Of a stretch of DNA of 64,000 nucleotides, positions 48,020 through 58,305 are shown piece by piece. The stretch is from Thiosocius teredinicola (GTDB taxonomy: Bacteria > Pseudomonadota > Gammaproteobacteria > Chromatiales > Chromatiaceae), in the NCBI RefSeq assembly GCF_002009425.1, contig NZ_CP019936.1, positions 3,583,297 through 3,647,296 on the forward strand. The letters are read 5' to 3'. The translations under genes and the position numbers were made by a program. The notes beneath the pieces are model-generated. The model made no database searches. It was not told the DNA's origin and worked only from the letters and a program-made list of their open reading frames with translations. The first letter of the stretch is position 1, and the number at the start of each line of letters is the position of its first letter.

Positions 48020-49951
48020 TCAGCCCGATCTTGGTTTCTTGTCGATACCCCAACGCTTGATGCGCGACGCCAGCGTCGTCGGTTTCACGCCGAGCAGTTC
48101 GGCCGCCCCGCCCGCACCGAATATCTTGCCGCCACTGGCCTCGAGCGCCTGCATGATCATGCGCCGGTCGCGCTCGCGCTTCTGCTGCTCGGTCATCAGG
48201 CCGTCGTTGATCTCCGGCGACGGCGCCATCGGCTTGCTCGCCGGCCGTTCGACATCGGGCAGTTCGAGACGCAGCTGATTGTTGCGCGAGATGATGACGG
48301 CACGTTCGAGCACGTTCTCGAGTTCGCGCACGTTGCCCGGCCAGTCATAAGCCTGTAGGCGCTGTACATCGGCCCCGGAGAGTCGCAGACCCTCGCGACC
48401 GAAGCGTCGGCAGGCGTTGGCCAGAAAGTGCGAGGCCAACAAGGGAATATCTTCAGGGCGTTCGCGCAACGGTGCCGATTCGATCGGGAACACATTCAGT
48501 CGGAAGAACAAGTCTTCACGGAAACGGCCTTCGGCCACCTCCTCGCTCAGATCACGATTGGTCGCGGCAATGATGCGCACATCGACCGTAATCGTTCGAT
48601 CGCTGCCGACCCGTTCGCATTGACCCTCCTGCAGCACGCGCAACAACTTGCTCTGTAACTCGAGCGGGATCTCGCCCACTTCATCAAGAAACAGCGTGCC
48701 ACCATCGGCGAGTTCGAAGCGTCCGGCACGATCGCGCACGGCGCCGGTATAGGCACCTTTCACATGGCCGAAGAATTCGCTCTCGAACAACTCACGCGGT
48801 ACCGCGGCACAGTTCACGCGGATCAGTGGCCGGTCACAACGCGCACTGCTCTGATGGATAGCACGCGCAATCAGCTCCTTGCCGGTACCCGATTCGCCGG
48901 TGATCAACACCGCTGCATCGGTCGGTGCGACCATCTCGATCTTCTGGATCGTCTTGCGCAGCGCGTCGCTGCGACCGACGATCTCCTGATAGTTGTATTC
49001 TTCGCGGATCTCTTCCTGCAGGTAGGCGTTCTCGAGTTCGAGGCGCTGTTTGAGGCGCTCCAGTTCCTCGAGCGCCTGATGTAGCTTCTGTTCGGTTTCC
49101 TTGCGTTCGCTGACGTCACGAAACACCACCACAGCTCCCACCAACCTGCCCTTCTCACGGATCGGCGTGCTGGTGTATTCCACCGGGAACGCACCGCCGT
49201 CCTTACGCCAGAAGACCTCGTCGGTCACCTGGTGTACCGCACCGTCCTTGAAGGCGGCATAGATCGGGCAGTCACATGCGGCATAGTGACTGCCGTCGGG
49301 GTGGGAATGGTGCAACAGGCTATGCATGTTCTTACCGACCAGCTCGTCGGCCGAATAACCAAGCATGCGTTCGGCCGCCGGGTTCACAAAGGTGGTCGCG
49401 CCTTCGGCATTGACGCCATAGATGCCCTCGCCTGCCGCCTGCAGGATGAGCTTGTTCTCTTGCTCGATCTCTTCGAACAGGGTCTCGACCCGCCGCCATT
49501 CAGACAGGCCGCGACGTACGAACTCGTTGGCCTGCGACTCGGCCTCCTGGTTGTGCAAAGCGCGCAGATCGCGGAGGGTCGCCAGCATCGCCGGCGCGTC
49601 TGCGGTGCCGATGCGTACCGCATGGCATTCCATGCGCCGACTGCGTCCATGACAGTCTCGGCAACGCAGGCTGTTCGTCCAGCCGCTGCCCGTTTCGATC
49701 ACCGCCTGGGTGAATACGATGAGATCCGCGATGGCTTCACCGAGCCAGTGACTGGGCACCACCTCGCACACCTCATCGGTGGAGAAACCCATCATCCGGC
49801 GAAACGCGGCGTTCGCCGCCAACAAGCGGTCCGCAAAAGGATCGATCACCACCTGCGCCTCGGGCGCCAGTTCAAATAGATCGTCACCTGCCGGCGCCGC
49901 CGTTGCAAAGCGGTCGACCGAGGCGGCAATCGCATAATCCAGGCGATCCAT
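48020..49951 (-). CDS. sigma-54-dependent transcriptional activator with PAS domains
   Basis: This is a 643-residue enhancer-binding protein. An N-terminal PAS-like region (about 22-130) is followed by a coiled linker and a second PAS domain (about 163-285, with [20 protein letters not shown] and [15 protein letters not shown]). Another coiled segment leads to the AAA+ domain with Walker A GESGTGKE (352-359) and the sigma-54 contact loop GAYTGA (399-404). A C-terminal Fis-type helix-turn-helix ends in [18 protein letters not shown]. There is no receiver domain, so the signal is probably sensed by PAS. It is divergent from the cyanate operon, whose -24/-12 promoter and upstream boxes it likely controls. 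Confidence 0.93.
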
Positions 49952-49976
49952 CAGCAACGCACCGCCATCGACTGGC

Positions 49977-50030
49977 TACGCAACTGCGTAATGGGCACTA
50001 CGCATCTGCGTAAGTTACGCATTTGCGTAA
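49977..50030. promoter_or_regulatory. three palindromic boxes, likely enhancer sites
   Basis: TACGCA-N2-TGCGTA occurs at 49977-49990, 49999-50012 and, extended to TTACGCA-N2-TGCGTAA, at 50015-50030. Centres are 22 and 17 bases apart and lie at about -143, -121 and -104 from the predicted start site of the cyanate operon. The first box is 26 bases from the activator gene start, so autoregulation is also possible. Confidence 0.85.
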
Positions 50031-50098
50031 TGCCACAGTGCGCAGGGGTAAAGGCATTTTCTTTCGACATTTCAGCACGTTATTTCGTTGTCACCGCA

Positions 50099-50115
50099 TT
50101 GGCACGCAGCCTGCT
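50099..50115 (+). promoter_or_regulatory. sigma-54 (-24/-12) promoter of the cyanate operon
   Basis: TTGGCACG-CAGC-CTGCT matches the consensus TTGGCACG-N4-TTGCT with a single mismatch. The invariant GG (50101-50102) and GC (50113-50114) are exactly ten bases apart. Transcription should start near 50126, giving a leader of about 235 bases. Confidence 0.85.
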
Positions 50116-50361
50116 CTATCCCTGGTGACCGGTTGTTGTTCGTTGCAAGCGACGACGCTCTGGTCGCCTGGACGCACCTTCGTGGTGCAGACATCGCAGC
50201 GTGTGGCGCTTCCTTGCGCCGTTATCGATCCGTCGGGGCGCCATACACACGCGGATGTGCACGCCGGAGGGATTACGAGCAGGGGTCGTGCCAATACGGG
50301 GCCGACCGGTGTCGTCACTGGCCGCGATTCACGTCTTGTAACGATCGATTAGGGGAAAGCA

Positions 50362-51870
50362 ATGTCCTTTAAAAGTCTGGGAAATCCCTTCGACGGGGAA
50401 TCGGACCTAACCCATGGCCCGGGTTGTTCGTGTCCCATTTGTGTGTTCGCGCGAGAACAGGCGCAAGCCGAATACGAGTGCTCCGAAACCGAGTTGACCG
50501 CCAAGCTCGAAAAGGCCGTATTCGAGGGCCCGGATCAGCCGCAGGCCGATCTGTCGATGCAGCCAGTCGAGACCAAGCAGACCTCGGTGGAAGATCCGAA
50601 CAGTCTCGACAACTCCGAAGACGTCATGGACCGGGTCATCGAGAGCGCGATCGTGCGTTCGATGTTCGGCCATCACGAACCGAGCCGTCGTCAGTTCATG
50701 CGCATGGTCGGTGGCGGCACCGTAGCCGGCATCCTGGCCACCATGTTCCCGCTGGATGCCGCCAAGGCGGCCATCAAAGACAGCCTCGGTAAACCGGAAA
50801 AAACCAAACTGAAGATCGGCTTCGTACCGATCACCTGTGCCACACCGATCATCATGTCGCACCCGATGGGGTTCTACGACAAGTACGGCCTCGACGTCGA
50901 CGTGATCAAGACGGCCGGTTGGGCCGTGGCACGCGACAAGTCGCTGTCGGGCGAATACGACGCCTCGCACATGCTCACGCCGATGCCGTTGGCAATGTCG
51001 ATGGGCGCCGGGTCAACGGCGATGCCGTTCCGCATGCCACTGGTTGAGAACATCAACGGCCAGGCGATCGTGTTGCACGTCAAGCACAAGGACAAGCGCG
51101 ACCCGAAGATGTGGAAGGGCTTCAAATTCGGTGTGCCATTCGATTACTCGATGCACAACTTCCTGTTGCGCTACTACGTGGCCGAGCATGGGCTCGATCC
51201 GGACAAGGACATCCAGATCCGTGTCGTGCCGCCGCCGGAGATGGTCGCCAACCTGCGTGCCGGCAACCTCGACGGTTACCTGTCGCCCGACCCGTTCAAC
51301 CAACGCGCGGTCTGGGAAAAGGTCGGCTTCTTGCACACTTTGACCAAGGACATCTGGGAAGGTCATCCGTGCTGTGCATTCGCCTGCTCGGAGAAGTTCA
51401 CGACAGAGTTGCCCAACACCTACGGCGCCTTGATGAAGGCCATCGTGGATGCGACGGCCTATTCGCAAAAGGCGGAAAACCGCTTGGAGATCTCCAAGGC
51501 CATCGCGCCGAAGAACTATCTCAACCAACCCGAAGCGGTTATCGCGCAGGTGCTCACCGGCAAGTATGCCGACGGCCTGGGCAATGTCATGAACGATCCG
51601 AAGCGTATCGATTTCGATCCCTTCCCCTGGCACTCGATGGGTGTCTGGATCCTCACGCAGATGAAGCGTTGGGGCTACATCAAGGGCGACATCGATTACA
51701 AGAAGATCGCTGAAGAGGTCTACCTGGCCGCGGATGCCACCAAGATCATGACGGATCTGGGTTACGCCGCACCGGATCACACCTATGAGAAGTACACGAT
51801 CATGGGTAAGGAGTTCGACCCGGACAAGGCCGAGGAATACGTCAACAGCTTCGCGATCAAGCGGACTTAA
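50362..51870 (+). CDS. cynA: ABC transporter substrate-binding protein, NrtA/CynA type, with N-terminal extension
   Basis: This is a 502-residue protein of the nitrate/cyanate/bicarbonate-binding NrtA-CmpA-CynA family, whose usual length is about 440. The N-terminal ~105 residues are an extra, acidic segment with a cysteine cluster GCSCPIC (21-27). A twin-arginine signal follows, with SRRQFMRMVGGG (108-119) and a hydrophobic stretch to about 136. The binding domain starts near LKIGFVPITCATPIIMS. YDASHMLTPMPLAMSMG and DPFNQRAVWEKVGFLH are family-like. AGGGGAAA precedes the ATG. It is the first gene of the sigma-54 operon. Substrate is inferred as cyanate from the linked cyanase. Confidence 0.85.
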   Translation: MSFKSLGNPFDGESDLTHGPGCSCPICVFAREQAQAEYECSETELTAKLEKAVFEGPDQPQADLSMQPVETKQTSVEDPNSLDNSEDVMDRVIESAIVRSMFGHHEPSRRQFMRMVGGGTVAGILATMFPLDAAKAAIKDSLGKPEKTKLKIGFVPITCATPIIMSHPMGFYDKYGLDVDVIKTAGWAVARDKSLSGEYDASHMLTPMPLAMSMGAGSTAMPFRMPLVENINGQAIVLHVKHKDKRDPKMWKGFKFGVPFDYSMHNFLLRYYVAEHGLDPDKDIQIRVVPPPEMVANLRAGNLDGYLSPDPFNQRAVWEKVGFLHTLTKDIWEGHPCCAFACSEKFTTELPNTYGALMKAIVDATAYSQKAENRLEISKAIAPKNYLNQPEAVIAQVLTGKYADGLGNVMNDPKRIDFDPFPWHSMGVWILTQMKRWGYIKGDIDYKKIAEEVYLAADATKIMTDLGYAAPDHTYEKYTIMGKEFDPDKAEEYVNSFAIKRT

Positions 51871-51879
51871 CCCAAGAAG

Positions 51880-51907
51880 GCGGGAGCGGGCTTTGGCCTG
51901 CTCCCGC
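51880..51907 (+). repeat. strong hairpin between cynA and cynB
   Basis: GCGGGAGCGGGC and GCCTGCTCCCGC form a 12-bp stem (one G-U pair) with a TTTG loop, ten bases after the cynA stop. There is no U tract. It is well placed to stabilise the binding-protein mRNA relative to the permease. Confidence 0.8.
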
Positions 51908-51924
51908 AATGGAACACGTTACCG

Positions 51925-52755
51925 ATGTTGCAATCACTCAATCTGCGCGCTGCACTGGTCTCGATCGGGTTACTGGTCGTGTTGCTCGGTGTCTGGGAGT
52001 TGCTCAACCGCCCCCCCGAGACCAGTGAAGCGCTCACCGAGTACGAGATACTGATGGGCGGTGCCGACCAGGAGGCGCGTGTTCCGCCGCCGTCCGACGT
52101 CATCCGCCTCGCTATCGACGAACTGTCGAACCCGTTCTACGACGCCGGGCCCAACGACAAGGGCATCGGCATCCAACTCGCCTACTCCATCTACCGCGTG
52201 CTGACCGGATTCTTCCTGGCCGCGCTGATCGCGATACCGATCGGTTTTCTGATCGGCATGTCGCCGTTGATGTACAAGGCGCTCAATCCCTTCATCCAGG
52301 TGCTGCGACCGATATCGCCGCTCGCCTGGATGCCCTTGGCGCTGTTCATCATCAAGGATTCGGAGACCTCATCGATCTTCGTCATCTTCATCTGTTCGAT
52401 CTGGCCGATGCTGATCAACACCGCCTTCGGCGTCGCCGGCGTGCGCAAAGACTGGGTGAACGTGGCGCGCACACACGAACTCTCTGCACTGCGTACTGCC
52501 ATGACCGTGATCCTGCCGGCGGCCGCACCAACCATTCTGACCGGCATGCGCATCTCCATCGGCATCGCCTGGCTGGTGATCGTCGCGGCCGAGATGCTCG
52601 TCGGCGGTACCGGCATCGGTTACTACGTGTGGAACGAGTGGAACAACCTCGATCTCACCAGCGTGATCTTCTCCATCCTGATGATCGGCGTGGTCGGCAT
52701 GTTGCTCGACCTCGCCCTGTCGGCGGCCACCCGACTCGTGCAGTACGAAGAATAA
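51925..52755 (+). CDS. cynB: ABC transporter permease, NrtB/CynB type
   Basis: This is a 276-residue inner-membrane permease. One N-terminal helix (about 8-25) is followed by a periplasmic loop and then the binding-protein-dependent transport domain with about five more helices. LTGFFLAALIAIPIGFLIG and PISPLAWMPLALFIIKDS are typical of the NitT/TauT group. The coupling EAA-like loop is ELSALRTAMTVILPAAAPTILTG. It lies ten bases before the ATPase gene and belongs to the same transporter as the upstream binding protein. Confidence 0.9.
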   Translation: MLQSLNLRAALVSIGLLVVLLGVWELLNRPPETSEALTEYEILMGGADQEARVPPPSDVIRLAIDELSNPFYDAGPNDKGIGIQLAYSIYRVLTGFFLAALIAIPIGFLIGMSPLMYKALNPFIQVLRPISPLAWMPLALFIIKDSETSSIFVIFICSIWPMLINTAFGVAGVRKDWVNVARTHELSALRTAMTVILPAAAPTILTGMRISIGIAWLVIVAAEMLVGGTGIGYYVWNEWNNLDLTSVIFSILMIGVVGMLLDLALSAATRLVQYEE

Positions 52756-52765
52756 AACCTACGCC

Positions 52766-53674
52766 ATGAAGCAAAATCAATTTCTGCAAATCGAAAACCT
52801 CGCGCGCCGCTTCCCTTCGAAGGAAGGTGAACTGACGGTATTCGAGAACGCCAACTTCGGCATCGAAAAGGGCGAGTTCGTCTGCATCATCGGACACTCG
52901 GGCTGCGGCAAATCGACCATCATGAACGTGCTCGCCGGACTCGATGCACCGACCGACGGCAACGTCTTCATGGACGGCACCGAGGTGTCCGGTCCGAGTC
53001 TCGACCGCGGCGTGGTATTCCAAAACTACTCCCTGCTGCCGTGGCTCAGCGCGCTGCATAACGTCACCTTCGCCGTGCGTTCGCGCTGGCCGGGCTGGAG
53101 CAAAGAACAGGTTCGCGAACACAGCTACAAGTACCTGGAGATGGTCGGCCTGGGCGGCGGTGCCGAACAGCGCAAACCGGCGCAGCTCTCCGGCGGTATG
53201 CGTCAGCGCGTATCCATCGCGCGCGCATTCGCCATTCAACCCAAGTTGCTGCTGCTCGACGAACCGTTCGGTGCCCTCGATGCGCTGACCCGCGGCACCA
53301 TCCAGGACGAGTTGCTGAAGATCTGCGATGCAACGCATCAAACGGTATTCATGATCACCCACGATGTCGACGAGGCGATCCTTCTGGCCGACCGCATCCT
53401 GCTGATGACCAACGGCCCCTATGCGCGTGTCGCCGAGTCGGTGCTGGTCGATATCCCAAAGCCGCGCACGCGCGGTCAGATCATTCACGACCCGGCGTAC
53501 TACCCCATCCGCAACCACCTGGTTGATTTCCTCGTGCGTCGCTCCGAGGAACTCGCCGGCGGACCGAGCGGTGACAACAACCCGGATGATGCCGCGAGCT
53601 ACCCGCGCGAGGTCAACCCCGCCAAGTCATCCGGCGGCAACGAAGAAGCAATGACGTCAGCCAGCGCCGGCTGA
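52766..53674 (+). CDS. cynD: ABC transporter ATP-binding protein, NrtD/CynD type
   Basis: This is a 302-residue ATPase of the NitT/TauT importers. It has Walker A GHSGCGKST (about 43-51), the signature LSGGMRQRVSIARAF and Walker B LLLLDEPFGALD. The switch histidine is in MITHDVDEA. The C-terminal ~40 residues are an extra acidic, low-complexity tail with SGDNNPDD. It energises uptake together with the upstream permease. The next gene starts about 30 bases later. Confidence 0.92.
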   Translation: MKQNQFLQIENLARRFPSKEGELTVFENANFGIEKGEFVCIIGHSGCGKSTIMNVLAGLDAPTDGNVFMDGTEVSGPSLDRGVVFQNYSLLPWLSALHNVTFAVRSRWPGWSKEQVREHSYKYLEMVGLGGGAEQRKPAQLSGGMRQRVSIARAFAIQPKLLLLDEPFGALDALTRGTIQDELLKICDATHQTVFMITHDVDEAILLADRILLMTNGPYARVAESVLVDIPKPRTRGQIIHDPAYYPIRNHLVDFLVRRSEELAGGPSGDNNPDDAASYPREVNPAKSSGGNEEAMTSASAG

Positions 53675-53704
53675 GTGCGCAACCCGACAGTCGAGAGAAA
53701 CGTT

Positions 53705-55102
53705 ATGACAGCCTGTGCCCAAGAAACCAGTCAACTCAAACAAGCACCGCAAAGCAGCAGCACCGACAGTCGCGTGCCGGTCACCGTGCTGACCGGATTT
53801 CTGGGGTCGGGCAAGACGACGCTGCTCAACCGCATCCTGACCGAAGAACACGGCAAGCGCATCGCGGTTATCGAAAACGAGTACGGCGAGATCGGCATCG
53901 ACCACGAACTGGTCGTGCAGTCGGATGAAGAAATCTTCGAGATGAACAACGGCTGCATCTGCTGCACGGTGCGCGGCGACCTGATCCGCATCCTCGGTCG
54001 CCTGATGCGGCGCAAGCACAAGTTCGATCACATCATCATCGAAACGACCGGCATGGCCGATCCCGGCCCGGTCGCGCAGACCTTCTTCATGGACGAGGAG
54101 ATGAAAGAGAAGCTGCGACTGGATGCGATCATCACGCTGGTCGATGCCAAGCACGTCGTTCACCACATGGACAGCGACGAGTGCCATGCGCAGATCGCCT
54201 TTGCCGACATCGTGTTGCTGAACAAGTCCGACCTGGTCGACGACAGCGCGCTTGTGGGCTTGGAAGATCACATCCGCGGCATCAACAAGCTGGCCGGCAT
54301 CCACCGCACCGTACAGGGCGGACTCGACATCGAGCTGTTGCTCGGCGTGAACGCGTTCGACCTCGAATCGCGCGCCGCCGAGATGCCCGAGTTCCTGAAA
54401 GAAGAACTGCCGTTCGAATGGGCCGGCCAGTACGAACTATCGCCCGGCCGTTATCGTCTTGAGCTCAAGCCCGGGCCGGACCCAACGATCGACCTGGTGC
54501 TCGGAGGCCCCGGCCTCGAAGACAATGCAATCTTCGATGCCTGGAAACGCAACAGCATCGTGCTGTATTCGAGTGATCCGACATTCGTCAATGCGGCAAC
54601 GCCGATGACGCCGGGCGACACCTTGTACCGACTCCCTGTCGATGAACAAACCGGCGCCGCAGTCGAGATCGACATCGAGGTCGCCGGACGCTACGTGTTG
54701 TTCACCCAGCATCTTCCCGAGGAATTCGATCTGCAGTTGGTGCGCGAAGGTGATATCGAACAGCCGGTTGAAGCCTTCGAATACGCCAGCCCGCACGAAC
54801 ATGACGACAGCGTCGGCTCGGTCGGTATCAACCTGGCGGGCGACCTCGATCCGAATCGCTTCGAGACCTGGATGGTCGACCTGCTGCGTCGTCGCGGCAC
54901 CGACATCTTCCGCACCAAAGGCGTGTTGAGCCTGGCCGGCGACGCCAAGCGTTTCGTCTTTCAAGGCGTGCATATGCTGTTTGACGGCCAACCGGGACGA
55001 GCGTGGGAAGAAGGCGTCGCGCGAGAGAGCCAGCTGGTGTTCATCGGCCGCGACCTCGACCGAACCGAACTCACCGAAGGACTGCGGGCGTGCCTGGTCT
55101 AG
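53705..55102 (+). CDS. CobW/COG0523 GTPase with an inserted domain
   Basis: This is a 465-residue G3E GTPase of the metallochaperone group. The G1 motif GFLGSGKTT is at 31-39, the metal-binding CICC at 84-87, [10 protein letters not shown] at about 113-122 and NKSD at 173-176. The C-terminal CobW_C domain (about 370-465) follows HEHDD. Between them, residues about 235-362 are an extra beta-rich domain ([31 protein letters not shown]) not found in short CobW proteins. The ATG at 53705 is preferred over a GTG at 53675. It likely inserts a metal into a partner enzyme; which metal is unclear. Confidence 0.88.
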
Positions 55103-56202
55103 CGGCCATCGAAACCCCGATGTTGTTCTCCATGCGCGAACCACGCATGTTGAGCGACGAAGTGACCGATCTCCTGTGGTCACCGCTGAACGACAAACTG
55201 TACGCCGCCAGTGCAGCCGGCGAGATTCAATACCTGGACACTGAAGGCAAGCTGCTGACCCAATGGCAGGCACACCAGGGCGGGGTCACCCGTTTGCGTT
55301 TGCAACCCAACCATCCCGACGTGCTGGCAAGCGCCGGCGAAGATGGCCGCGTGGTGCTGTGGAACAGCACCGACGGCAGTGAACAGTCAACCTTGATCAA
55401 CGAAAGCGACTGGATCGAGCACCTCGACTGGACGCCCGACGGCAACGTGCTGGCTGCGGCCGCGCGTAAGACCATCTCGCTGTGGCGTGGCGCTGAGTCG
55501 CTGGGCATGTGGTACGACGCACGTCGCCAGGTGTTGGCGATGGCCTGGGCACCCGACGGCAAGCGCCTCGCAACTGCCGCCAACAAAGGTCTCTACCTGT
55601 GGCGCATGCAGGATGCCGGCAACGACAGTTCCGAACCGATGCAGCTGCTGAGCTTTCCGGGTGCGCCGGTCTCACTCGCCTGGCAACCCAACAGCAAGGC
55701 GCTGGCCGTCGGTACCCAGGATGGCTTTCTGCAGATTTGGCGTCCGGCCGACAATGCCGGCGGTAAACGCAATGAGTCGGCCAAGCAGCTTACGATGCGG
55801 GGCTATCCCGGCAAGGTGAACTGCCTTGCCTGGCACCCGACAACGACCACGATCGCGACCGCCGGCGGACCTGACGTGGTGCTGTGGCAACTCACCCACA
55901 AGGGCACCAAGGGCAACCCCCTGCGTCACCATCAAAGCACCGTGACCGCAATCACCTGGTCGCCCGACGGCACGCTATTGGCTTCCGGCGACCGCGCCGG
56001 GCGGCTGTGTATCTGGGACAGCGAAGGCGACCCGGTGTTCAGCCAGAAGCTCGACCACGAGATCTCTACCCTGGGATGGCGCAACGACAGCCTCGTGCTG
56101 GCGGTCGGCGATACCGGCGGTGCCCTGCACCTGGTCGATCGCAACCGCGCCAATCCCCCTACTTCCACGACGTCGCCAGACGAGGAGGCACACGTTGACT
56201 AA
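55090..56202 (+). CDS. WD40 repeat protein
   Basis: This is a 370-residue cytosolic beta-propeller. About seven WD-type repeats are visible, for example [43 protein letters not shown] and [15 protein letters not shown], enough for one propeller. The GTG at 55090 is chosen because AAGGA lies nine bases upstream; it overlaps the CobW gene. An ATG at 55120 is an alternative. WD40 proteins act as scaffolds, so it may dock the GTPase to a target. Its stop overlaps the cyanase start. Confidence 0.85.
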
Positions 56203-56635
56203 AGACGATATGACCATGGCCATTCTGGCCGCGCGCAAGAAGCTGGACCTGAGCTGGGAAGGACTGTCTGAGAAGGTCGGCCTGGCACCGGTCTTTCTGA
56301 CCAGCGCCTGTCTCGGTATGAACAGCCTTAAGCCTGAGTTCGCCGACAAGGTCGCCGAGACGTTGGGGCTGGATGGTGACGTGAGCGCTGCCCTGCAGGA
56401 GTTTCCGCACAAGAGCTGGGACAAGCTGGTGCCTACCGACCCGGTGATCTATCGCCTGTACGAGATCGTCGGTGTGTATGGCGACACCATCAAAGAGATC
56501 ATTCACGAGAAGTTCGGTGACGGCATCATGTCGGCCATCGACTTCTCGATGCACATCGACAAGGAAGAGAACCCCGCCGGTGACCGCGTCGTCGTGACGA
56601 TGAACGGGAAGTTCCTCCCGTACAAATCCTGGTAA
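56195..56635 (+). CDS. cynS: cyanase (cyanate hydratase)
   Basis: CynS breaks down cyanate with bicarbonate to ammonia and CO2. The 146-residue product has the DNA-binding-like N-terminal helical domain and the catalytic C-terminal domain. Matches to E. coli active-site residues are Arg87 and Glu90 in YRLYE and Ser113 in IMSAIDF, preceded by HEKFGDGI. The start is a TTG at 56195 with GAGGAGG six bases upstream; it overlaps the WD40 gene by eight bases. The ATG at 56210 would remove five residues. It supports naming the ABC transporter as cyanate type. Confidence 0.96.
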   Translation: MTKDDMTMAILAARKKLDLSWEGLSEKVGLAPVFLTSACLGMNSLKPEFADKVAETLGLDGDVSAALQEFPHKSWDKLVPTDPVIYRLYEIVGVYGDTIKEIIHEKFGDGIMSAIDFSMHIDKEENPAGDRVVVTMNGKFLPYKSW

Positions 56636-56678
56636 GCCCGCAATCACCGAACGCACCTACGACATCGAGGTAATCGAG

Positions 56679-57332
56679 ATGACCCATAATGCCGACCGTA
56701 TTTCCGCAACTACCCGTCGCAACAGCCTGATCGCGCTTGCAGGCATCGCGCTGACAGCACCTGTCGCACAGGCGCACCACGCGATGGATGGCGCCACCCC
56801 CACCAACTTGTTCGAGGGCTTTCTGTCCGGACTCGCCCACCCAGTGATCGGCGTCGACCACTTTGCGTTTCTGGTGGTCGCCGCCTTGATGGCCTTCACG
56901 TTGAACGGCAAGGCCCGTTACCTGGTACCGCTGGCATTTGTCGGCGCCACCGTGGCCGGCACCCTGTACCACCTGACCGCAGCCGACCTGCCCTTGGTCG
57001 AGACCGTCATCGCCCTGTCGGTATTGCTCGGCGGCGTCGCCGTGTTGCTCAAACACAGCGTGTCGGCACTGCTGATGGGGGCCTTGTTCGCCGTAATCGG
57101 CGTGTTCCACGGTTACGCCTACGGCGAATCGATCGTCGGTGCCGAGCAGACGCCGCTGCTGGCGTATCTGGCCGGCTTCGCATTGATCCAGTTCGCCATC
57201 ATCGCTGCCGCCGTCAAGGGCCTGTCGATGATCGCGCAGCATTCGCAGCGCGCCCAGAGACTTACCCGCAGCACCGGCGGCCTGTTCGCCGCTGCCACCG
57301 GCGCCGCCTTCCTGGCGATGAACCTGAGCTGA
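56679..57332 (+). CDS. HupE/UreJ family metal permease
   Basis: This is a 217-residue membrane protein. An N-terminal signal-like segment ends near QAHHAMDG, and about six helices follow. The HupE/UreJ motifs are HPVIGVDHFAFLVVA and the later HGYAYGESI. The family moves nickel or cobalt, and histidines here are well placed for this. It is the last gene before a strong terminator, in the same transcript as cynS and CobW. Cyanase itself needs no metal, so the supplied metal must serve another protein. The ATG at 56679 has GAGG upstream. Confidence 0.88.
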   Translation: MTHNADRISATTRRNSLIALAGIALTAPVAQAHHAMDGATPTNLFEGFLSGLAHPVIGVDHFAFLVVAALMAFTLNGKARYLVPLAFVGATVAGTLYHLTAADLPLVETVIALSVLLGGVAVLLKHSVSALLMGALFAVIGVFHGYAYGESIVGAEQTPLLAYLAGFALIQFAIIAAAVKGLSMIAQHSQRAQRLTRSTGGLFAAATGAAFLAMNLS

Positions 57333-57345
57333 TACGCAATCAACG

Positions 57346-57370
57346 ACAGCCCCGCACGTAGCGGGGCTGT
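57346..57370 (+). terminator. intrinsic terminator after the HupE gene
   Basis: ACAGCCCCGC and GCGGGGCTGT form a 10-bp stem with an ACGTA loop. The U tract is short (TTCAG). It separates the cyanate operon from the rhodanese gene. Confidence 0.75.
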
Positions 57371-57432
57371 TCAGTGCATTACCCTGAGCGCGAGGCCGCA
57401 GATCCTGGTTGGCCTCGGCTGGAGAAACCTCG

Positions 57433-58305
57433 ATGTCTGAGAACGTTCTTATCACACCGACCCAGTTGAAACAGATGGCCGAGTCCTTGCCGACTGTCAT
57501 CATCGATACCCGCTCGCCCGACGCCTATGCCGCCGGACACATCCCTGGCGCCGTCAATATCCACGATATCTTCACGTTTCTGGCCACCTCGTCGAAAGAA
57601 GGCATGCAAGAACTGCGCGGCAAGTTCGCCGAGGCATTCGGCGCTGCCGGCCTGTCGGGCGAAGAAGTTGCCGTGATCTATGAAGACAGCATGAACACCG
57701 GCTTCGGTCAGTCGTGCCGCGGTTACTTTCTGCTGCAATTCCTCGGCTATCCCAAGGCTACGATTCTGCACGGCGGCTACCAAGCATGGCTTGCCGAGTC
57801 TCTGCCTACCACGACCGATGCGACCACGCCGGAACCGAAGACATTCCCGGTTGATGAGGCCAGTGCAAGTGTCATGTTGACCAAGGACGATATGCTCGAG
57901 TCACTTGGAAAAGACGCTATCGTCAAACTCGATGTTCGCGATGTCGACGAATGGGTCGGCACGAGTTCATCGCCCTATGGCGTCGACTTCTGTCCGCGCA
58001 AGGGTCGCATCCCAGGTGCCGTCTGGCTGGAGTGGTATCGCATGATGAAGCCCGGCGAAGAAGTGCCGGTATTCAAGACCAAGGAAGAACTGCAGGCCGA
58101 ATGCGGCACCGTCGGTATCAACCCCGACTCCACCGTCTACATCTACTGCTTCAAGGGCGCACGTGCATCCAATACCTTCGTTGCCTTGAGAGAGGCCGGC
58201 GTCAAGGATGTCCGCCTGTATTTCGGTTCGTGGAACGAATGGTCGCGCGACCCGGAACTGCCGATCGAAACCGGTCATCCGGCGATGGCGTGGGAAGCGG
58301 CCTGA
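57433..58305 (+). CDS. two-domain rhodanese (thiosulfate:cyanide sulfurtransferase type)
   Basis: This is a 290-residue protein of two rhodanese domains, about 1-125 and 140-290. The first has DTRSPDAYAAGHIPGAVN, and its active-site-like position contains SCRG (Cys95). The second has the catalytic cysteine in YCFKGARASNTF (Cys239) with the basic loop of thiosulfate sulfurtransferases. Both domains thus hold a cysteine, whereas classic rhodanese has only one. It can transfer sulfane sulfur to cyanide to make thiocyanate. The ATG at 57433 has GGAG upstream. It is next to the cyanate operon and ten bases before a CopD-like gene. Confidence 0.9.
   Translation: MSENVLITPTQLKQMAESLPTVIIDTRSPDAYAAGHIPGAVNIHDIFTFLATSSKEGMQELRGKFAEAFGAAGLSGEEVAVIYEDSMNTGFGQSCRGYFLLQFLGYPKATILHGGYQAWLAESLPTTTDATTPEPKTFPVDEASASVMLTKDDMLESLGKDAIVKLDVRDVDEWVGTSSSPYGVDFCPRKGRIPGAVWLEWYRMMKPGEEVPVFKTKEELQAECGTVGINPDSTVYIYCFKGARASNTFVALREAGVKDVRLYFGSWNEWSRDPELPIETGHPAMAWEAA

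Follow-up and report, generated by a model that had tools for sequence, protein, structure and literature searches.

In Pseudomonas pseudoalcaligenes CECT5344, the gene for a putative sigma-54 activator, cynF, is located 268 base pairs (bp) upstream of and divergent from the cynABDS operon; a CynF mutant is devoid of cyanase, CynF being essential for cynABDS expression (PMC6627978). The operon is induced by cyanate and repressed by ammonium, which abolishes cyanase even in the presence of cyanate, and this repression was attributed to 'probably the Ntr system' (PMC6627978). Predicted sigma-54 targets that are enriched in alpha- and gammaproteobacteria include cyanate lyase (COG1513; PMC12316311), and cynS is lowered in RpoN-deficient Bradyrhizobium DOA9 (PMC13207237). 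Here we describe the cyanate locus of Thiosocius teredinicola, located in a stretch of 64,000 nucleotides (nt) of NZ_CP019936.1 (the window) from a genome of 4.79 megabases (Mb), in which a cynF-like activator gene is divergent from a cyn operon. Comparison with related loci makes it likely that the locus is wired as a two-tier sigma-54 cascade, with NtrC acting on cynF and CynF, together with cyanate, acting on the cyn operon. Sigma-54 activator control of cyanate use is already known from the CynF of Pseudomonas; it is the likely NtrC input into cynF, placed back to front in the clade of the window, that looks new. A limited literature search (mostly of titles) on cyanate or cyanase with NtrC, RpoN or cynF gave, among the titles listed, none on control of cynF by an NtrC site or by a sigma-54 promoter.

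Relatives were collected by a scan with the substrate-binding protein of the window, retaining the best 80 of 472. Together with stretches from additional relatives, 98 sequences were compared, with cynA absent from four (L137, L139, L141, L142). Setting aside eight duplicate stretches left 86, and exclusion of L091 and L104, which have no promoter under a strict GG/GC rule, gave 84 scored loci, including that of the window itself (WIN). Greedy clustering at 85% identity of the substrate-binding protein yielded 32 representatives, drawn from the same first data set as the leftward promoter offset used below. A held-out set consists of 7 of 38 further loci, chosen by eye for an activator and some dyad (the dyads of L191 are poor); loci of that collection that resemble alphaproteobacteria and in which fewer dyads accompany an activator, for instance L193 and L195, are outside the scored seven.

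The cynF-like activator and its putative operator

The regulatory elements of the window are as follows.

48020..49951, minus strand: cynF-like gene, PAS-PAS-AAA+(GAYTGA)-Fis sigma-54 activator of 643 amino acids (Pfam, motifs, divergent homologues)
49977..49990, no strand: putative CynF dyad 1, TACGCAACTGCGTA (exact match, conservation)
49999..50012, no strand: putative CynF dyad 2, TACGCATCTGCGTA, 22 bp from dyad 1 (exact match, conservation)
50016..50029, no strand: putative CynF dyad 3, TACGCATTTGCGTA, 17 bp from dyad 2 and 84 bp from the -24 element (exact match, conservation)
50100..50115, plus strand: P+, predicted -24/-12 promoter (sigma-54) driving the cyn operon, TGGCACGCAGCCTGCT, with its start predicted at about 50126 (motif, conserved position)
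50173..50189, no strand: predicted NtrC box in the operon leader, CGCACCTTCGTGGTGCA (genome motif counts, conservation)
50278..50293, minus strand: P-, predicted leftward sigma-54 promoter toward cynF, TGGCACGACCCCTGCT, predicted start about 50267 (motif, conservation)

The activator reading frame starts with ATG at 49951, and its product matches Sigma54_activat (4.7e-74), PAS domains and HTH_8 in Pfam, with GESGTGKE at residue 352, GAYTGA at 399 and GGTLFLDE at 417. The protein shares two features with CynF-type regulators, namely the PAS/AAA+/Fis architecture with a GAFTGA-type loop (here GAYTGA) and a gene divergent from cynABD(S), in agreement with the first-pass annotation, which had proposed a PAS-AAA-Fis activator with an intact GAYTGA loop opposite the operon. 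A homologue is located upstream on the opposite strand in 77 of the 80 relatives (best 80 of 472), the exceptions being L039, L053 and L104. The genome encodes one RpoN. No LysR-type (CynR) regulator beside the operon was found among the 10 proteins scanned. The first-pass annotation had suggested that a sigma-54 route would differ from CynR; such a route is not new, given the known CynF (PMC6627978).

The three TACGCA-N2-TGCGTA palindromes are exact, and their centres lie at about -142, -120 and -103 from the expected start at about 50126, within a base pair of the earlier estimate (about -143, -121 and -104). The genome holds no perfect copy besides these three, and paired TACG-N6-CGTA dyads 6–10 bp apart occur once, at the cyn locus (control 0). 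The first-pass annotation had proposed a genome search for further TACGCA-N2-TGCGTA pairs near -24/-12 promoters to define the regulon. Such a search gave no other perfect dyad, so that a CynF regulon of perfect sites beyond the cyn locus is rejected and CynF looks like a local regulator.

The dyads are widely conserved. A TACG-N6-CGTA triple with at most 4 mismatches of 24 precedes the promoter in 71 of the 84 loci, and in 24 of the 32 representatives compared to 0/32 for every one of 17 alternative dyad sequences. The spacing of 22+17 bp was the best of 289 combinations among the representatives (a scan covering 14–30 bp), and exactly 22+17 is found in 51/84 loci when spacings of 21–23 and 16–18 are admitted. 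Dyad 3 starts 80–85 bp before the -24 element in 80/84 loci, the range searched being 77–90 bp. Most relatives display the form TACGAA..TTCGTA, whereas the window has TACGCA..TGCGTA.

This difference covaries with the regulator. A Trp after the recognition helix, in the motif SR(I/L)xRW, is present in WIN, L029, L030 and L126 and in L078, L081, L102 and L091, and in the Trp-bearing loci dyad position 5 is C in most, but not all, half-sites; it is A in most other loci. On the tree, one starred group consists of WIN, L029, L030 and L126, and another holds L078, L081 and L102 with L091. With Trp as scored (L082 included; L091 left out, its helix motif being different at one residue), the starred branches force at least three changes, possibly one gain and two losses. 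L091 was kept in this count despite its exclusion from the 84 loci; the script for the covariation table misplaced the dyad rows of L030, L037 and L084, and the sites of L030 were taken from a separate scan of the promoter region. Of the sequence evidence, this covariation argues best for binding of the dyads by CynF itself.

P+ has GG and GC ten bases apart, as previously noted, in a TGGCAC-N5-TTGCW context and at a conserved place, and the same applies to P-. The P+ motif TGGCACG-N4-YTGCW is one of 7 exact genome copies compared to 4 for the control, so that the match by itself is weak evidence for a promoter, its conserved position being stronger. The cynA leader would span about 236 nt, from about 50126 to the first operon gene start at 50362. 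Linkage of activator, dyads, promoter and operon, previously put forward as an inference, is supported by the conserved triple, its fixed spacing and the covariation.

Two further observations concern the activator family. A paralogue (G000:C1:4544668-4546119, L025) is about 49% identical over residues 160–639 and has a counterpart in each of 8 other searched genomes of the genus. Locus L104, from Lentisphaera, encodes a 69%-identical substrate-binding protein with permease, ATPase and cynS; no CynF-like match is present in the 17 kilobases examined and no dyad-plus-promoter set was found, which suggests transfer of the cyanate genes without their regulator.

The predicted NtrC box and leftward promoters

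The first-pass annotation had called the circuit complete. The parts it listed are present; it missed two elements in the cynA leader, a predicted NtrC box and an opposing sigma-54 promoter. Compared to the published NtrC consensus TGCACCAnnnTGGTGCA (PMC8743547), the box CGCACCTTCGTGGTGCA matches 12/14 fixed positions, with exact GCACC and GGTGC halves, and departs from it at position 1 (C instead of T) and position 7 (T instead of A). GCACC-N5-GGTGC occurs 21 times in the genome, compared to 2 for the control. The remaining 20 comprise 15 copies within a long open reading frame and 5 outside one (cut-offs of 150 and 90 amino acids); two of the latter precede glnA and urtA, and both are accompanied by a -24/-12 site (1 or 2 mismatches). 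The urtA gene is a usual NtrC target. The same is true of glnA (PMC4987338). A single protein of the genome scores above the NtrC cut-off (742.6 versus 558.6 bits).

A box with at most 2 mismatches of 10 is found in the leaders of 58/84 loci. Among the representatives it is present in 23/32 leaders, compared to 0/32 for the region between cynF and P+, 3/32 and 0/32 for two coding stretches, and about 2/32 for shuffled leaders, in which base counts alone were preserved. Box and leftward promoter (of either class described below) occur together: 21 of the 23 representatives with such a promoter carry the box, compared to 2 of the 9 without. In L030 and L034, box and P- are kept while the rest of the leader is at or near shuffle level relative to the window; the highest similarity outside the elements, in the box-to-P- stretch of L030, is 0.65 compared to 0.60 ± 0.03 for shuffles. 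In the region 50160-50270, close relatives share a second inverted stretch 3' of the box, TGGCGC..GCGCC in the window and TTGTGC..GCACCA in symbiont loci.

The leftward promoter is found in one of two places. At the usual place, a leftward -24/-12 site is located 122–129 bp to the left of P+ in 20 of the 23 representatives considered (each with rank p<0.05), a count from which WIN, L031, L034, L035, L038 and four alphaproteobacteria were left out by choice; across the scored loci such a site lies 120–130 bp left of P+ in 51/84. Among the 41 measurable loci in which this site ranks as the best leftward one, its predicted start precedes a cynF start codon by 17–45 nt in 33 and by 1–16 or 46–150 nt in the remainder. 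The edge of this promoter is 2–3 bp from dyad 1 in four loci worked by hand (L047, L066, L076, L102). The usual order is thus cynF promoter, CynF dyads, operon promoter, NtrC box and cynA, placing the centre of the box 169–271 bp upstream of the cynF promoter.

In the clade of the window the usual cynF promoter is missing (rank p 0.54 for the window), and TGGCACG-N4-CTGC is found instead in the cynA leader, 185–199 bp right of P+, in 11/84 loci and in the held-out L173. The two classes, defined by rank p<0.05 at the usual place (with L038 and L084 borderline at p 0.051 and 0.066) and by a score of at least 14 in the leader, are mutually exclusive: 51 loci have the former, 11 the latter, 22 neither and none both. 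In the held-out set, the usual cynF promoter was found in 3/7 loci (L177, L178, L179) and the leader type in 1/7 (L173). From the box and the promoters that accompany it, we infer that NtrC drives cynF.

A proposed two-tier circuit and its alternatives

In the first tier of the proposed cascade, nitrogen limitation would lead to phosphorylated NtrC on 50173-50189, which would activate P- (50293-50278) and thus transcription of cynF. In the second, CynF, presumably switched on by cyanate via its PAS region, would bind the three dyads as an upstream enhancer and activate P+ (50100-50115), leading to expression of cynABD-CobW-WD40-cynS-HupE and probably the rhodanese gene. The route of this second tier is known from the same layout in Pseudomonas, and the DNA sites proposed for it are supported by conservation here. 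Since the usual cynF promoter adjoins dyad 1, CynF bound there would block its own promoter and shut off its own gene. In the clade of the window the predicted leftward sigma-54 promoter sits beyond the NtrC box and faces P+, so that transcription from it toward cynF would pass through P+ and the dyads. As the cynF promoter lies on the other side of the enhancer in most gammaproteobacterial relatives, it may have changed sides in this clade and kept its input. We regard as tentative, at somewhat less than an even chance, the full version of this arrangement, in which NtrC fires P- from downstream, a single box lies between facing promoters, and the cynF transcript runs back through P+ and the CynF enhancer, wiring in a conflict between cynF and the operon.

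Several observations weigh against the cascade. In the clade of the window the box follows both P+ and P- (by about 87 bp from the predicted P- start), which is unusual for an enhancer, and cynF would have a leader of about 310 nt. Neither leftward class is present in 22/84 loci, mainly alphaproteobacteria and Chromatiaceae, or in 3/7 held-out loci (L189, L190, L191). For CECT5344 cynF, a sigma-70 and not a sigma-54 promoter was predicted (PMC6627978). As for the dyads, TACGCA-N2-TGCGTA with one mismatch allowed is not enriched genome-wide (8 places versus 13 for the reversed control), L082 combines Trp with A-type dyads, and some C without Trp occurs in L108, in some Chromatiaceae (L035 and L036) and in the symbiont loci L031, L033 and L138. 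Helical phasing of the box relative to P+ seemed apparent for 22 representatives of the first set (R 0.55, period 10.5 bp, p about 0.001; p 0.011 with the period searched; p 0.037 for 13 loci with a stricter box). It is not claimed, because the held-out loci failed to reproduce it, with 2/5 in phase among the five with a box of at most 2 mismatches.

An alternative, which we consider unlikely, has CynF alone on P+ via sigma-54, cynF transcribed from a sigma-70 promoter and the leader elements without effect on cynF; NtrC would act directly on P+ from the downstream box, so that cyanate and nitrogen limitation would both be needed. It would accommodate the sigma-70 prediction for CECT5344, the location of the box on the operon side of P+ and the ability of ammonium to block CECT5344 cyanase even with cyanate present (PMC6627978). 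However, a consensus scan of 49900-50400 gave no sigma-70-like promoter, a leftward sigma-54 promoter lies at a fixed offset in 51/84 loci and in the leader in 11 more, the box goes with that promoter and its phasing relative to P+ was not reproduced. Quite unlikely, in our view, is that P- produces an antisense RNA against the operon leader, or a transcriptional collision with P+, rather than the cynF transcript. P- does face P+ from inside the P+ transcript and 310 nt is a long distance to cynF, but the two leftward classes are mutually exclusive, and no terminator-like site was found in 49900-50400.

The palindrome in the leader, together with its neighbouring hairpins, could also be a cis-acting RNA (attenuator or riboswitch) and not an NtrC site, given that it is able to form a hairpin and that its two outermost positions frequently read either T-A or C-G. 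Against this, the inner positions are unpaired (e.g. C with A in L066 and L074) and the same motif is found upstream of glnA and urtA. No Rfam family came near its cut-off and leader stability is not unusual (z -0.61), on which grounds a structured leader RNA was rejected; we hold the idea to be very improbable. That dyads and -24/-12 elements are chance or bystander sequence has a next to negligible probability. With 3 mismatches allowed, the window indeed contains many -24/-12 matches (88, a number exceeded by shuffles) and dyads with one mismatch are no commoner than the control, but perfect dyads occur at the cyn locus only and the triple is conserved with fixed spacing. Chance occurrence of the dyads was rejected on the unique perfect copies, the specificity of the TACG triple and the single pair in the genome. 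The two-tier cascade is retained as the likely arrangement.

If NtrC and sigma-54 target cynF, ammonium repression of cyanate use in many gammaproteobacteria would have a concrete reason. Furthermore, the analysis supplies a predicted CynF operator backed by regulator–operator covariation, and a sigma-54 promoter seemingly swapped across its enhancer would offer a natural case for how enhancer position limits sigma-54 activation.

The cyanate operon and known systems

The operon comprises the following genes, all on the plus strand (ABC, ATP-binding cassette).

50362..51870, plus strand: cynA-like ABC substrate-binding protein (NMT1_2); a long extension precedes its twin-arginine motif (Pfam, alignment)
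51925..52755, plus strand: cynB-like ABC permease (Pfam, NCBIfam)
52766..53674, plus strand: cynD-like ABC ATPase (Pfam, NCBIfam)
53675..55102, plus strand: CobW-family GTPase (Pfam)
55123..56202, plus strand: WD40 propeller protein, start codon uncertain (Pfam)
56207..56635, plus strand: cynS, cyanase, start codon uncertain (TIGR00673 and PRK02866 above cut-off)
56679..57332, plus strand: HupE/UreJ membrane protein (Pfam)
57409..58305, plus strand: rhodanese-domain protein, two matched stretches, probably still part of the operon (Pfam; also after HupE in L035-L037)

The transporter-CobW-WD40-cynS-HupE order read by the first-pass annotation is borne out by matches to CobW, WD40 and HupE/UreJ and by a CynS above both NCBIfam cut-offs (173.8 versus 113.3 for TIGR00673). 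CobW and WD40 are found together in 10 of the 80 relatives (best 80 of 472), and a literature search returned no paper combining cyanate, CobW and WD40. In the substrate-binding protein, about 105 residues precede the twin-arginine motif (SRRQF; 50362-50760). This extension starts M-x-x-K-S-L-G and contains an H and a C-x-C-x2-C, with conservation of at least 97% across an alignment of 86 sequences that includes the window. The Thiohalocapsa loci L035, L036 and L037 carry the transporter-CobW-WD40-HupE-rhodanese set with no cynS match within the stretch examined, and cynS is reversed in L132.

Among known regulators, CynR of E. coli exerts the same cyanate-specific control of a cyanase operon but is of the LysR type and not a sigma-54 activator, its family being unrelated to that of CynF. 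In the NtrC-nifLA-NifA cascade of Klebsiella, NtrC, itself a sigma-54 activator, drives the gene of another such activator that is specific to the pathway, and the proposed cyn circuit would have the same two-activator order. It differs in that the cyn regulator and its target operon share one intergenic region, and in that the predicted promoters of the window clade face each other. The reports on COG1513 (PMC12316311) and DOA9 (PMC13207237), in the parts available, provide a general link between sigma-54 and cyanase and describe no operator, activator or NtrC layout. The CECT5344 operon is cynABDS without CobW, WD40 and HupE, and the account of it, as far as its description extends, names no CynF operator and no NtrC box and gives cynF a putative sigma-70 promoter (PMC6627978). 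The closest likeness is nevertheless to cynFABDS of this strain (P. pseudoalcaligenes, also oleovorans), based on gene layout and the published description, with a divergent Fis-type activator and a predicted sigma-54 promoter before cynA (PMC6627978).

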